From positions 5,251,803 through 5,315,802 of the forward strand of contig NZ_CP049780.1 of NCBI RefSeq assembly GCF_011193355.1: a DNA stretch of 64,000 bases, written 5' to 3'. Of the stretch, positions 39,374 through 55,305 are shown one piece after another; position 1 is the first letter of the stretch; every line of letters begins with the position of its first letter. Source of the DNA: Streptomyces sp. JB150 (GTDB taxonomy: Bacteria; Actinomycetota; Actinomycetes; Streptomycetales; Streptomycetaceae). The notes under the pieces are model-generated. The model searched no databases. It saw nothing but the letters and a program-made list of their open reading frames with translations, and was not told the DNA's origin. The translations under genes and the position numbers were made by a program.

Positions 39374-39432
39374 CGGTCGGTCGTCTCCCAGGGCATGAAC
39401 GCATGCGGGCGAGGGCAGGTCCTCCCCATCTG

Positions 39433-39645
39433 TCATCGGAACCTGAGAGGTTCGCCGCGACCGCCAGAGGGACGATCACGGCTTGCACCTTGGGTGGGGC
39501 CGGATCTCCTCGCCGAGGACGGGAGCGGCCCGCTTTTCAGATGTGCCTCGCCCGCGCGGTAACGGGGCCTGAGAGATTCAAGGGAGGGACTTGCTCCTTC
39601 GGCGCCCCGGCGACACGGTGGCCGGGGACTCTCCCGCGCGGATTC
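39433..39645 (-). promoter_or_regulatory. tandem glycine riboswitch
   Basis: Read leftward from 39645 there is GCGGGAGAGTCC, a P2/P3 region, GGCGCCGAAGGAGCAA and AATCTCTCAGG, the full signature of one glycine aptamer. After a short linker the second aptamer shows GGTGCAAGCCGTG, a long P3 and GAACCTCTCAGG at about 39440-39451. Two such aptamers in series just before gcvT is the classic arrangement in which glycine turns on its own cleavage. The riboswitch ends about 60 bases before the gcvT ATG. Only one CAGG/GAGAGG core each is seen, so both aptamers look intact; the second has a shorter start helix. Confidence 0.92.
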
Positions 39646-39824
39646 AAACGGCCGGTATGCAGTTGGCGCGCACATCATTGCACGCCGGGCCGGATCGTGG
39701 CAGACCACATCTGTAACCGGGCTGTGGCGGTACGAGAACGAAAACACGAGACATCGCGGATTACCTTCTCTTTACACTCGATGGGCATGGGAACACGTGA
39801 ACCGCCCCAGGGAGGACGATCACG

Positions 39825-53195: not shown

Positions 53196-54359
53196 ATGGC
53201 ATACCTCGACCACGCCGCGACCACCCCGATGCTCCCGGAGGCGGCAGAGGCACTGACCGCCCATCTGGGCGTCACGGGCAACGCCTCCTCCCTGCACGCG
53301 TCCGGCAGACGGGCCCGCCGCACCGTCGAGGAAGCCCGCGAGACCCTCGCCGAGGCCCTGGGCGCCCGCCCCAGCGAGGTGGTCTTCACCTCCGGCGGCA
53401 CCGAGGCGGACAACCTCGCCGTCAAGGGCCTGTACTGGTCCCGGCGCGCCGCCGACGACCGCCGCACCCGCGTCCTCGCCAGCCCGGTCGAGCACCACGC
53501 GGTCCTCGACGCGGTCCACTGGCTCGGCGAACACGAGGGCGCCGTGGTCGAGTACCTGCCCGTCGACGCCTACGGCCGGGTCCACCCCGACGCGCTGCGC
53601 GAGGCCATCGCCCGCGACCCGGACGACGTCGCCCTCGCCACCGTGATGTGGGCCAACAACGAGATCGGCACCGTCCTGCCGGTGCGCGAACTCGCCGCCG
53701 TCGCGGCCGAGTTCGGCGTCCCGCTGCACGCCGACGCGGTCCAGGCGGTCGGCCAGCTCCCGGTCGACTTCGGCACCTCGGGCCTCGCCGCGATGACCGT
53801 GTCCGGCCACAAGATCGGCGGCCCGTACGGCATCGGCGCGCTGCTGCTGGGCCGCGAGCACAGTCCCGTACCGGTGCTGCACGGCGGCGGCCAGGAACGG
53901 CACGTGCGCTCCGGCACCCTCGACGTCCCCGCCATCGCCTCCTTCGCCGTCGCCGCCCGGCACGCCGCCGAGCACCGCGAGCGCTTCGCCCGCGAGATCG
54001 GCGCCCTGCGCGACGACCTGGTCACGGCGGTCCGTGCGGCGGTCCCGGACGCGATCCTCGGCGGCGACCCGGTCGACCGGCTCCCGGCCAACGCCCACTT
54101 CACCTTCCCCGGCTGCGAGGGCGACTCCCTGCTGCTGCTCCTCGACGCGCAGGGCATCGAGTGCTCCACCGGATCCGCCTGCACCGCCGGCGTCGCCCAG
54201 CCCAGCCATGTCCTGCTCGCCACCGGCACCGACCCGGACCTGGCCCGCGGCACCCTGCGCTTCTCGCTCGGCCACACGTCCACCGCGGCCGACGTGGAGG
54301 CGGTCGCCAAGGCGATCGGGCCGGCGGTGGAGCGGGCGCGCGCGGCGGGGCTGACGTAG
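53196..54359 (+). CDS. cysteine desulfurase (IscS/NifS family)
   Basis: Removes sulfur from cysteine as enzyme-bound persulfide, using PLP, for Fe-S clusters, tRNA thiolation and thiamine. 387 residues, start ATG ([20 protein letters not shown]). Motifs: [77 protein letters not shown] with the PLP Lys, and the sulfur-carrying Cys in [12 protein letters not shown]. All key residues are present. Next sulfur-using gene is mnmA, 1 kb downstream. A TPP riboswitch reads toward this gene from the opposite strand, which is unusual, because thiamine synthesis needs sulfur from such enzymes (see findings). Confidence 0.95.
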
Positions 54360-54397
54360 CGCGCCGGGGTTCTCGGGGCACGAAAAAGGACCTACGA

Positions 54398-54483
54398 GAC
54401 GGGTTCCCTTCGCCGGTATTGCCCGGATCAGGTGGCTGGGGGTCGCCTTCCGGTCTTGCGACCTTCCGGCCTCTCAGCCCGTC
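54398..54483 (-). promoter_or_regulatory. TPP (thiamine pyrophosphate) riboswitch, orphan, facing the cysteine desulfurase gene end
   Basis: Read leftward from 54483: GACGGGCTGAGAGG (P1 and the conserved CTGAGA), then a variable P3 hairpin, then ACCTGATCCGGGCAATACC and GGCGAAGGGAA, then CCCGTC closing P1 at 54398. This is the THI-box pattern almost letter for letter. The strand is minus, whereas the gene to the left (cysteine desulfurase) is plus, so no sense gene follows. 11 bases beyond P1 is a run of five U (54383-54387) that could end a short RNA, though no stem right before it was found. Confidence 0.9.
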
Positions 54484-54575
54484 CGTCGACGTCGGCCATG
54501 GCGGAGGCGTCAGCGTCTCGCCACAGTCGGCGACTCCGGTCCGGACTCCCTCACTCGTCCCGTAGGCCTGCTCCC

Positions 54576-54603
54576 AGGATAGGACGCCCAGGCTGGGATG
54601 TAA
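54576..54603 (-). promoter_or_regulatory. possible promoter of the TPP riboswitch RNA
   Basis: Leftward reading gives TTACAT (54603-54598), a 16-nt gap and TATCCT (54581-54576). A start site near 54569 would lead straight into the riboswitch 86 nt later. It lies beyond the amidase stop (54628), so the riboswitch RNA need not be the tail of the amidase message. Confidence 0.4.
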
Positions 54604-54627
54604 CCGGTCGAATGCCGCTTTTTTCGG

Positions 54628-55305
54628 CTAGGCCGGTCCGGGTGACGCCGCCGCGGACACCGCCTGCCGCACCAGCCTCAGATACCGCTCCCAGTCCCAG
54701 TGCGGCCCCGGATCGGTGTGGTCCGTGCCCGGCACCTCCACGTGCCCGATGATGTGCTCCCGGTCCACCGGGATGCCGTACCGCCGGCAGATTCCCGCCG
54801 TCAGCCGGGCCGACGCGGCGTACATCGCGTCCGTGAGGTCCTGCGGGCGGTCGACGAAGCCCGCGTGCTCGATGCCGATGCTGCGCTCGTTGTACTCCCG
54901 GTTGCCCGCGTGGTACGCCACGTCCAGCTCGCGGATCATCTGCGCGATCCGGCCGTCCTGCCCCACGATGTAGTGCGACGCCGCGCCGTGACCGGGGTCC
55001 TGGAAGACCTTCACCGCGCTGTCGAAGCTGCCCTGCGTGACATGGACGATCACCATGTCTATCGCGTAGTCGTCGGGCCGGTCCGCCCACCGGAAGTTGG
55101 CCGAGGAGGCCGCCACCCACCGTGCGCCCCGGTAGTCGACCGCGCCCTCCTCGCGGGGCTTGCGCACGCCCGGCACCTGCCACCACAGCCGCGACAGCTC
55201 GTCGCGCGCCAGCACCGCCCCGGTGCCGAGCACGGCCGCCGCGCCGCCCACGATCAGCGAGCGGCGCCCGATCCGCCGGCGTGAGCCGTCCCTCGTCTGC
55301 TCCAT
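54628..55305 (-). CDS. Tat-exported N-acetylmuramoyl-L-alanine amidase (Amidase_2/PGRP fold)
   Basis: A secreted or periplasm-like cell-wall hydrolase of 225 residues starting [20 protein letters not shown]; twin Arg before a hydrophobic core ([17 protein letters not shown]) suggests Tat export. The amidase fold starts [20 protein letters not shown] (first zinc His), followed by [58 protein letters not shown] and the last zinc ligand in [12 protein letters not shown]. The length fits a single domain. The start has a poor ribosome-binding site; a GTG 12 bp upstream (VLADMEQ) is an alternative. It is divergent from mnmA. Confidence 0.88.

Follow-up and report, generated by a model that had tools for sequence, protein, structure and literature searches.

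A candidate family of free-standing RNA genes with a TPP aptamer in Streptomyces and related genera

Few RNAs have been studied as closely as TPP riboswitches, which are regarded as cis switches and, in bacteria, as switches of vitamin B1 genes. The stretch of DNA analysed here, called the window (64,000 nucleotides of Streptomyces sp. JB150, contig NZ_CP049780.1), carries on its minus strand a TPP-type aptamer with no gene of the same strand behind it, which raises the question of what such an aptamer controls. A sequence-only reading had suggested that the aptamer, read from a plausible promoter of its own, could form a free RNA of about 190 nt or, by reading on, could exert antisense control over the cysteine desulfurase gene that it faces. 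Comparison of copies from other genomes supports the first of these possibilities and speaks against the second. On balance, and with some reserve, we favour the view that the element belongs to a new family of free-standing non-coding RNA genes in the order that holds Streptomyces, which would act in trans with TPP as the input and the P1 and P3 helices as the output.

Scanning the whole window at the Rfam cut-off yielded a tandem glycine riboswitch as the only match and missed the TPP aptamer, because its 30.6 bits lie below the RF00059 gathering cut-off of 54.3 bits. The glycine riboswitch is at 39420-39646 on the minus strand (70.0 and 37.3 bits, both above the cut-off). A cmscan search of the RNA stretch matched RF00059 at 54388-54562 (30.6 bits, E 3e-4) and found nothing else besides one chance-level miRNA match. 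By the cut-off the copy thus falls outside RF00059 (30.6 vs 54.3 bits); the alignment spans all 105 model positions (54562-54388) and contains the five-helix TPP layout with CUGAGA and the P4-P5 core. Both the letters and this alignment confirmed the minus-strand THI-box motifs where the sequence-only reading had placed them (CTGAGA at 54477-54472, ACCTGATCCGGGCAATACC from 54433 and GGCGAAGGGAA ending at 54404), and the part that is kept on the 3' side (CUGAGA, then ACCUGAUCCGG..AAU.CCGGCGAAGGGA) agrees with the TPP core. P3 has 58 extra bases in the Rfam alignment. The sequence-only reading had missed that the ends of the RNA pair over 13 bp (54568-54556 with 54401-54389; GGCCUACGGGACG with CGUCUCGUAGGUC), as well as the upstream amidase gene on the same strand and mnmA. 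One C and then UUUUU follow P1 on its 3' side. Folding z-scores of the RNA were -3.0 and -3.3, and a covariance model built from 24 sequences (R1) matched the window copy over its whole length with 190.4 bits. The TPP core of this copy is intact, and its P3 loop has one change, GUC for GUA. The features of the RNA are as follows:

54383..54569, minus strand: stand-alone RNA of about 187 nt with predicted ends (R1 match, folding z-scores, covariation in the family)
about 54569, minus strand: predicted start of the RNA, on the side of its GGCCUACG end
54556..54568, minus strand: 5' strand of P1, GGCCUACGGGACG, closing the RNA (pairing with 54401-54389, covariation)
54525..54537, minus strand: 5' strand of the P3 internal loop, GGAGUCGCCGACU (consensus GGAGUAGCCGACU), near-invariant in 80 full copies
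54483..54497, minus strand: 3' strand of the P3 internal loop and of P3, GGCCGACGUCGACGG (conservation across typed copies)
54472..54477, minus strand: CUGAGA of the TPP aptamer (J3-2), which we take to be its pyrimidine site (Rfam alignment; 100% in 80 full and 32 other-type copies)
54404..54433, minus strand: P4-P5 arm of the TPP aptamer, which we take to be its pyrophosphate site (Rfam alignment; missing by deletion from 8 of 122 copies and decayed in 2 others)
54389..54401, minus strand: 3' strand of P1, CGUCUCGUAGGUC (pairing with the 5' strand, covariation)
54383..54387, minus strand: terminator-like run of U, one base past P1 (weak or absent in many relatives)
54388..54562, minus strand: sub-threshold RF00059 (TPP) match (cmscan)

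We rejected a hidden small protein in the RNA, judging by eye that one-base indels between copies (CCGACC vs CCGAACC) break the frame.

A promoter had been proposed at 54576-54603, and its -10 box is indeed found there. Generic sigma-70 and terminator consensus scans gave no match at the element; we call the promoter because the box is conserved across copies, and not from a consensus scan. Its parts are:

54576..54624, minus strand: promoter of the RNA gene (conservation across copies)
54624-54619, minus strand: A-tract of the promoter
54605-54600, minus strand: GGTTAC, at the place of the -35-like GGGGGTTC of other copies
54581-54576, minus strand: -10 box TATCCT

For each copy we looked for TAnnnT in a 13-base window from 17 to 5 bases 5' of the GCCUACG of the RNA, using 120 of 122 distinct copies (one copy without this anchor and one too close to a contig end were omitted). 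The box was found at a near-fixed distance in 118 of the 120, against 7 of 1200 control windows, which is what a free-standing RNA gene with a promoter of its own should display. An upstream A-tract and a G-run with TTC are also conserved (88 upstream stretches). Transcription would start at about 54570-54568 and the transcript would end at about 54383, where the window offers P1 and the U run as a possible terminator; the U run is weak in many copies. Downstream, conservation fades about 13 nt past P1, beyond a weak UUUCGUGCCC (86 stretches). A weakly kept CGUGCCC is seen about 8-13 nt past P1 in the window (54382-54376, minus strand) and in relatives at different sites, and may be a true 3' end marker or a pause site.

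Control of the gene read behind it, as is usual for a TPP riboswitch, is not seen in the window, where the next gene is convergent. This gene is nifS (53196-54359, plus strand, Aminotran_5), and there is no sense gene leftward, as had been stated. The U run at 54387-54383 was also correctly placed, with 23 nt between it and the stop codon of nifS. Upstream, on the same strand as the RNA, is a gene for an N-acetylmuramoyl-L-alanine amidase (54628-55305, minus strand), with mnmA further out. The product of mnmA acts in tRNA thiolation; the suggestion that this nifS provides sulfur for the thiazole of thiamine is weak for a gene located near mnmA.

To see whether nifS or any other gene accompanies the RNA elsewhere, we pooled 124 copies, 122 of them distinct. 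The same RNA occurs in many unrelated neighbourhoods. The most frequent, site A (67 of 124 copies), has the order aldehyde dehydrogenase - ferredoxin - RNA - convergent TetR - glycosyltransferase, and was assigned when any of the four neighbour genes was found by tblastn; TetR was found in 62 copies and was inverted once. Site B, that of the window with nifS, accounts for 13 copies, site C for 3, and other places for 41. The genome of the window has a site A of its own, with the TetR and glycosyltransferase genes and without aldehyde dehydrogenase, ferredoxin or RNA, and no remnant of the RNA was seen there in the stretch examined. In one locus (L028) a tRNA gene at 1320-1404 on the plus strand precedes the RNA by about 110 nt, in the same orientation.

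These counts bear directly on antisense control of nifS, in which TPP would set either a stop at 54383 or read-through into nifS. Riboswitch-controlled antisense RNA is known (AspocR, a B12 case in Listeria; PMC8079631, in part), and the RNA converges with nifS in all 13 site-B copies, in the window with only the 23 nt mentioned above in between. However, the 111 other copies are not beside nifS and a conserved antisense partner was thus not found, the gap between the RNA match and the nifS match at site B varies from 9 to 110 nt, and little is conserved more than about 13 nt past P1. We dropped this reading because the location beside nifS is not conserved, and regard it as very unlikely.

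A second possibility is that the element is a cis TPP riboswitch that has decayed or been orphaned by loss of the gene it regulated, as the sub-threshold Rfam score and the missing sense gene in the window would suggest. Against this, the promoter, P1, P3 and TPP core are kept in many species and at different sites, the helices show compensatory changes, and the low Rfam score is common to all 11 core-bearing relatives tested. Conservation across sites contradicts decay, and we give this explanation hardly any credence. The sequence-only reading had itself named decay of the element in other species as an outcome that would count against it; the comparison across genomes that it had called for showed instead that the RNA and its promoter are conserved at different loci, with little kept more than about 13 nt beyond P1.

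The RNA could also be a cis element of a neighbouring gene, either as the 3' UTR of a same-strand gene that precedes it or, at some loci, as a leader of the downstream gene. Gene orientations were called with home-made rules on GC at codon positions, so that the following counts are crude. In 71 of 124 loci the upstream gene shares the strand of the RNA (for example ferredoxin at site A), and the next downstream gene is in sense orientation in 28, within 100 nt in 12 of these (for example L031-L033 and L148). Against a general role of this kind, in 118 of 120 copies the promoter separates the RNA from the gene before it, the genes upstream vary from locus to locus and are read from the opposite strand in 49 of 124, and the downstream gene is convergent in 92 of 124 (none was called in 4). 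As a family-wide explanation we consider this very improbable. Two recurrent cases in which the RNA directly precedes a gene of the same strand were noted, the gene looking by eye SDR-like in one (L031-L033) and aldehyde-dehydrogenase-like in the other (L097 and L148), and cis control looks possible at these loci.

We then return to the reading preferred here, that of a free-standing RNA gene, and to its distribution. By DNA search, 32 of 101 Streptomyces genomes contain a homologue, although in four of them the match is limited to 36-44 bases. With R1, 49 of 150 Streptomyces genomes had a match of at least 64 bits, one copy per genome, the next score being 42.5 bits, which is the level of ordinary thi riboswitches; the RNA is thus absent from about two thirds of the 150 genomes searched. 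An exact pattern search in named genomes gave at least 120 stretches, of which 80 were used, and among the 80 matches listed all were from Streptomyces except one from Actinacidiphila. In a sample of the family, 23 of 121 genomes had the RNA at 92 bits or more, in 25 places and in 8 of 17 genera. Among order-mates outside the family, 5 of 12 genomes had it (6 places, 92-131 bits), all in one family (f41), and in a class-wide sample of 148 genomes only two, both of the window's genus, exceeded 50.3 bits. We discarded a phage- or plasmid-borne element as an explanation: an exact 5' pattern had no match in viral contigs, phage records gave none, and the single plasmid match was on a 5.7-Mb Embleya replicon without an annotated feature at that place.

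The proposed fold was examined in two alignments to R1: A2, with 90 sequences, which includes 10 loci used to build R1 and further loci of the same species, and A3, with 35 matches, none of which was used to build R1 (L084 is in both). In A2, pairing holds in 95.9% of cells and both partners vary in 25 of the 57 pairs, a number reached in 0 of 500 shuffles, and sliding the partners by 1-3 columns reduced pairing to 34-48%. In A3, both partners vary in 25 of the 45 pairs, a number likewise reached in 0 of 500 shuffles. Within P1, 6 of 15 pairs in A2 and 7 of 14 in A3 change on both sides; one P1 pair in A3 is A-U in 19, G-C in 13 and G-U in 3 of the 35. Comparative evidence thus gives good support to the closing stem P1 and to the long P3 arm, whereas the pairs of P4-P5 hardly vary and thus give little information on their pairing.

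The same alignments touch on another explanation, in which the RNA is a trans-acting base-pairing sRNA, a free relative of Listeria SreA, whose P1 or P3 loop would pair with mRNAs while TPP only tunes it. The sequence of P1 and of the P3 loop is kept beyond what pairing needs, 6 of 15 P1 pairs being invariant across the 90 sequences of A2, as this explanation would predict; P1 is, however, very stable, and the conserved loop lies inside a structured arm. We hold base pairing of this kind to be rather unlikely, though worth keeping in mind.

The conserved positions fall into two parts of the RNA. Copies were assigned by hand to types (intact, lost, and other, the non-Streptomyces type). The TPP core motifs are complete in 111 of 122 distinct copies, the window included. 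The 80 full copies show almost no variation in either the TPP core or the P3 internal loop (GGAGUAGCCGACU / GGCCGACnnCGACGG), the intact set's own agreement being high by construction because conserved positions were defined on it. Strains with a full copy include S. griseofuscus DSM 40191 (L135) and S. viridochromogenes DSM 40736 (L100). The P4-P5 arm is deleted in 8 of the 122 copies and decayed in 2 more:

Site B, P4-P5 arm deleted: L084
Site A, P4-P5 arm deleted: L239; the pair L241/L242; L029/L209/L030/L238
TPP arm decayed: L140/L113

In these ten copies, agreement in P4-P5 falls to 17.5%, against 99% for the 5' strand of P1, 96% for the 5' strand of the P3 loop and 100% for its hairpin; the 3' strands are lower (P1 86%, P3 91%), perhaps in part as an alignment effect at the edge of the deletion. 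The 32 other-type copies, many of them from other genera, have CUGAGA in 100%, P4-P5 at 98% and the 5' strand of the P3 loop at 44%. On a tree of the TetR gene the arm losses at site A fall into three groups (three changes), with site B as a fourth, and the lesions differ; a single origin of the site-A loss is not rejected (p-AU 0.285). This pattern suggests two modules, a TPP core kept across genera and a P3 loop kept in most Streptomyces copies, including those without the arm.

OsdR is the Streptomyces counterpart of DevR, the dormancy regulator of M. tuberculosis, and its published box is AGGGCCGATCGGCCCT (PMC5069765, in part). We built a matrix from 25 published sites (PMC5069765, in part), which themselves score 11.2-18.9. 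Among 26 other-type copies, mostly from other genera, 8 have an OsdR/DevR box with a score of 7 or more, which in six of these is 11.2 or higher, while a score of 7 is reached by 1.55% of 2640 control windows, whose maximum is 11.5; the eight boxes represent fewer than eight independent events because several come from one genome or from near relatives. Relative to the -10 box, the position is -37 or -38 in each of the eight. L206 and L270 are among the other-type copies with a promoter box. Two further copies have weaker boxes at -37 (scores 4.7 and 4.1), and the other 16 have none. In the Streptomyces-type promoters, 0 of 101 reach a score of 5, and the window copy scores -6.3. The A-tract and G-run with TTC 5' of the -10 box in Streptomyces-type copies (54600-54624 in the window) are unlike the OsdR box and are perhaps the site of some other regulator.

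Stress-type genes were found by Pfam in 6 of 14 neighbourhoods examined, among them those of some other-type copies; ten neighbour proteins had been picked by eye for a stress-family look, of which nine matched a Pfam family and one none. S30AE ribosome-hibernation proteins are near four copies (L265, L266, L267 and L271), Usp near L265 and L268, baeRF near L265 and L271, and CBS-BON near L263. One genome of genus g14 (G228) has three copies (L253, L254 and L255) within about 76 kb of one chromosome; one of these copies is close to what looks by eye like a cold-shock gene, and another is close to genes for baeRF and S30AE. In the window's genus, genome G143 carries a copy of the g14 type (L247 / L268) with an OsdR-like box scoring 10.1, near PspA-like (by eye) and Usp genes. 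Finding this type in the window's genus suggests horizontal transfer, and this copy has probably moved between genera.

The scores against RF00059 are low throughout. Eleven core-bearing relatives scored 32.1-46.1 bits and all 12 core-bearing copies tested, window included, 30.6-46.1 bits, below the TPP cut-off in every case; three relatives without the TPP arm gave no RF00059 match at E 1. Annotation based on the cut-off would therefore miss the family. The genome of the window has cis TPP riboswitches at three loci, with genes named by eye as thiC, thiO and a thiamine transporter, and thus the free RNA is not needed as their only switch. The thiC riboswitch (L004, 1503-1692, minus strand; G000:C1 from about 3717565) is also below the Rfam cut-off at 37.3 bits and carries in P3a about 86 inserted nt, a stretch which holds ATGTTTCACATGAAACAT and a second similar stretch; we take ATGTTTCACATGAAACAT to be close to the parS site of ParB.

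Compared with RF00059, the free RNA shares the P1-P5 layout, P3a, CUGAGA and the ACCUGA...P4/P5 part with AGGGA. It differs, also from the cis copies of this genome, in having its own promoter and no gene behind it, in a 13-bp P1 conserved in sequence, in a P3 about 58 nt longer with a conserved internal loop, and in scoring below the Rfam cut-off. EutX is a cofactor-aptamer RNA similar to Rli55. Rli55 itself, a B12 aptamer RNA that sequesters EutV, is likewise a free RNA gene with a cofactor aptamer and an output part, but its aptamer controls transcription of the ANTAR-binding part, whereas here the aptamer encloses the P3 part (PMC8079631, in part). Listeria SreA and SreB (SAM) are also metabolite aptamers freed as sRNAs and thought to act in trans, but SreA is the terminated leader of genes controlled in cis, and the window has no such gene (PMC8079631, in part). 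AspocR is an aptamer RNA convergent with a gene, as in the window, but the present RNA has no conserved antisense target (PMC8079631, in part). The HMP-PP riboswitch also has its aptamer within a terminator-like stem, but is of another aptamer class and often beside thiS (PMC6478431, in part). DrrS, a DosR-controlled sRNA of M. tuberculosis, resembles the other-type copies in the DosR/DevR-type control proposed for them, but the abstract part of its report mentions no TPP aptamer (PMC5360333).

Trans-acting riboswitches and riboswitches as RNA genes are thus already known for SAM and B12 in Listeria (PMC8079631, in part). No free-standing TPP RNA gene was found in the sections covered of PMC8079986, PMC8780764, PMC11109978, PMC2258182, PMC11678152, PMC8269248 and PMC8388888. 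Published Streptomyces sRNA lists may contain the transcript unrecognised.

Comparison of sequences defines the gene boundaries and the fold, and shows that the TPP core is intact in most copies, that the arm has been lost in some and that no neighbour is fixed; from these results we infer transcription, binding of TPP and action in trans. In the known TPP fold, the ligand brings the P2-P3 and P4-P5 arms together. We propose that the RNA would be read from its own promoter into a TPP aptamer closed by the long P1, with transcription probably ending at the foot of P1 and, at most loci, no gene read behind it. Binding of TPP would dock the P4-P5 arm against the P2-P3 arm, and docking would alter access to, or the stability of, an output part made of P1 and the long P3 arm, whose near-invariant internal loop may bind a partner, protein or RNA. 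Lineages without P4-P5 would retain this output in a form that does not sense TPP. Such a free-standing TPP sensor probably acts at a distance on some target. More tentatively, and as a speculation that we do not expect to hold in full, the aptamer would gate a second module in the P3 arm that binds a partner in trans, and the RNA would have originated in a dormancy regulon under an OsdR/DevR box, coupling the TPP level to entry into or exit from dormancy, before it was moved and rewired in Streptomyces, where several lineages shed the sensor and kept the effector.

If free TPP-aptamer RNA genes do occur across an order of antibiotic producers, TPP would also steer something remotely in these bacteria, through a family that cut-off-based annotation has missed, since every tested copy scores under the Rfam cut-off. 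Species that have naturally lost the sensor arm would offer a ready-made experiment in which sensing and output are separated, and the dormancy boxes of sister genera point to a condition in which to look for the RNA.
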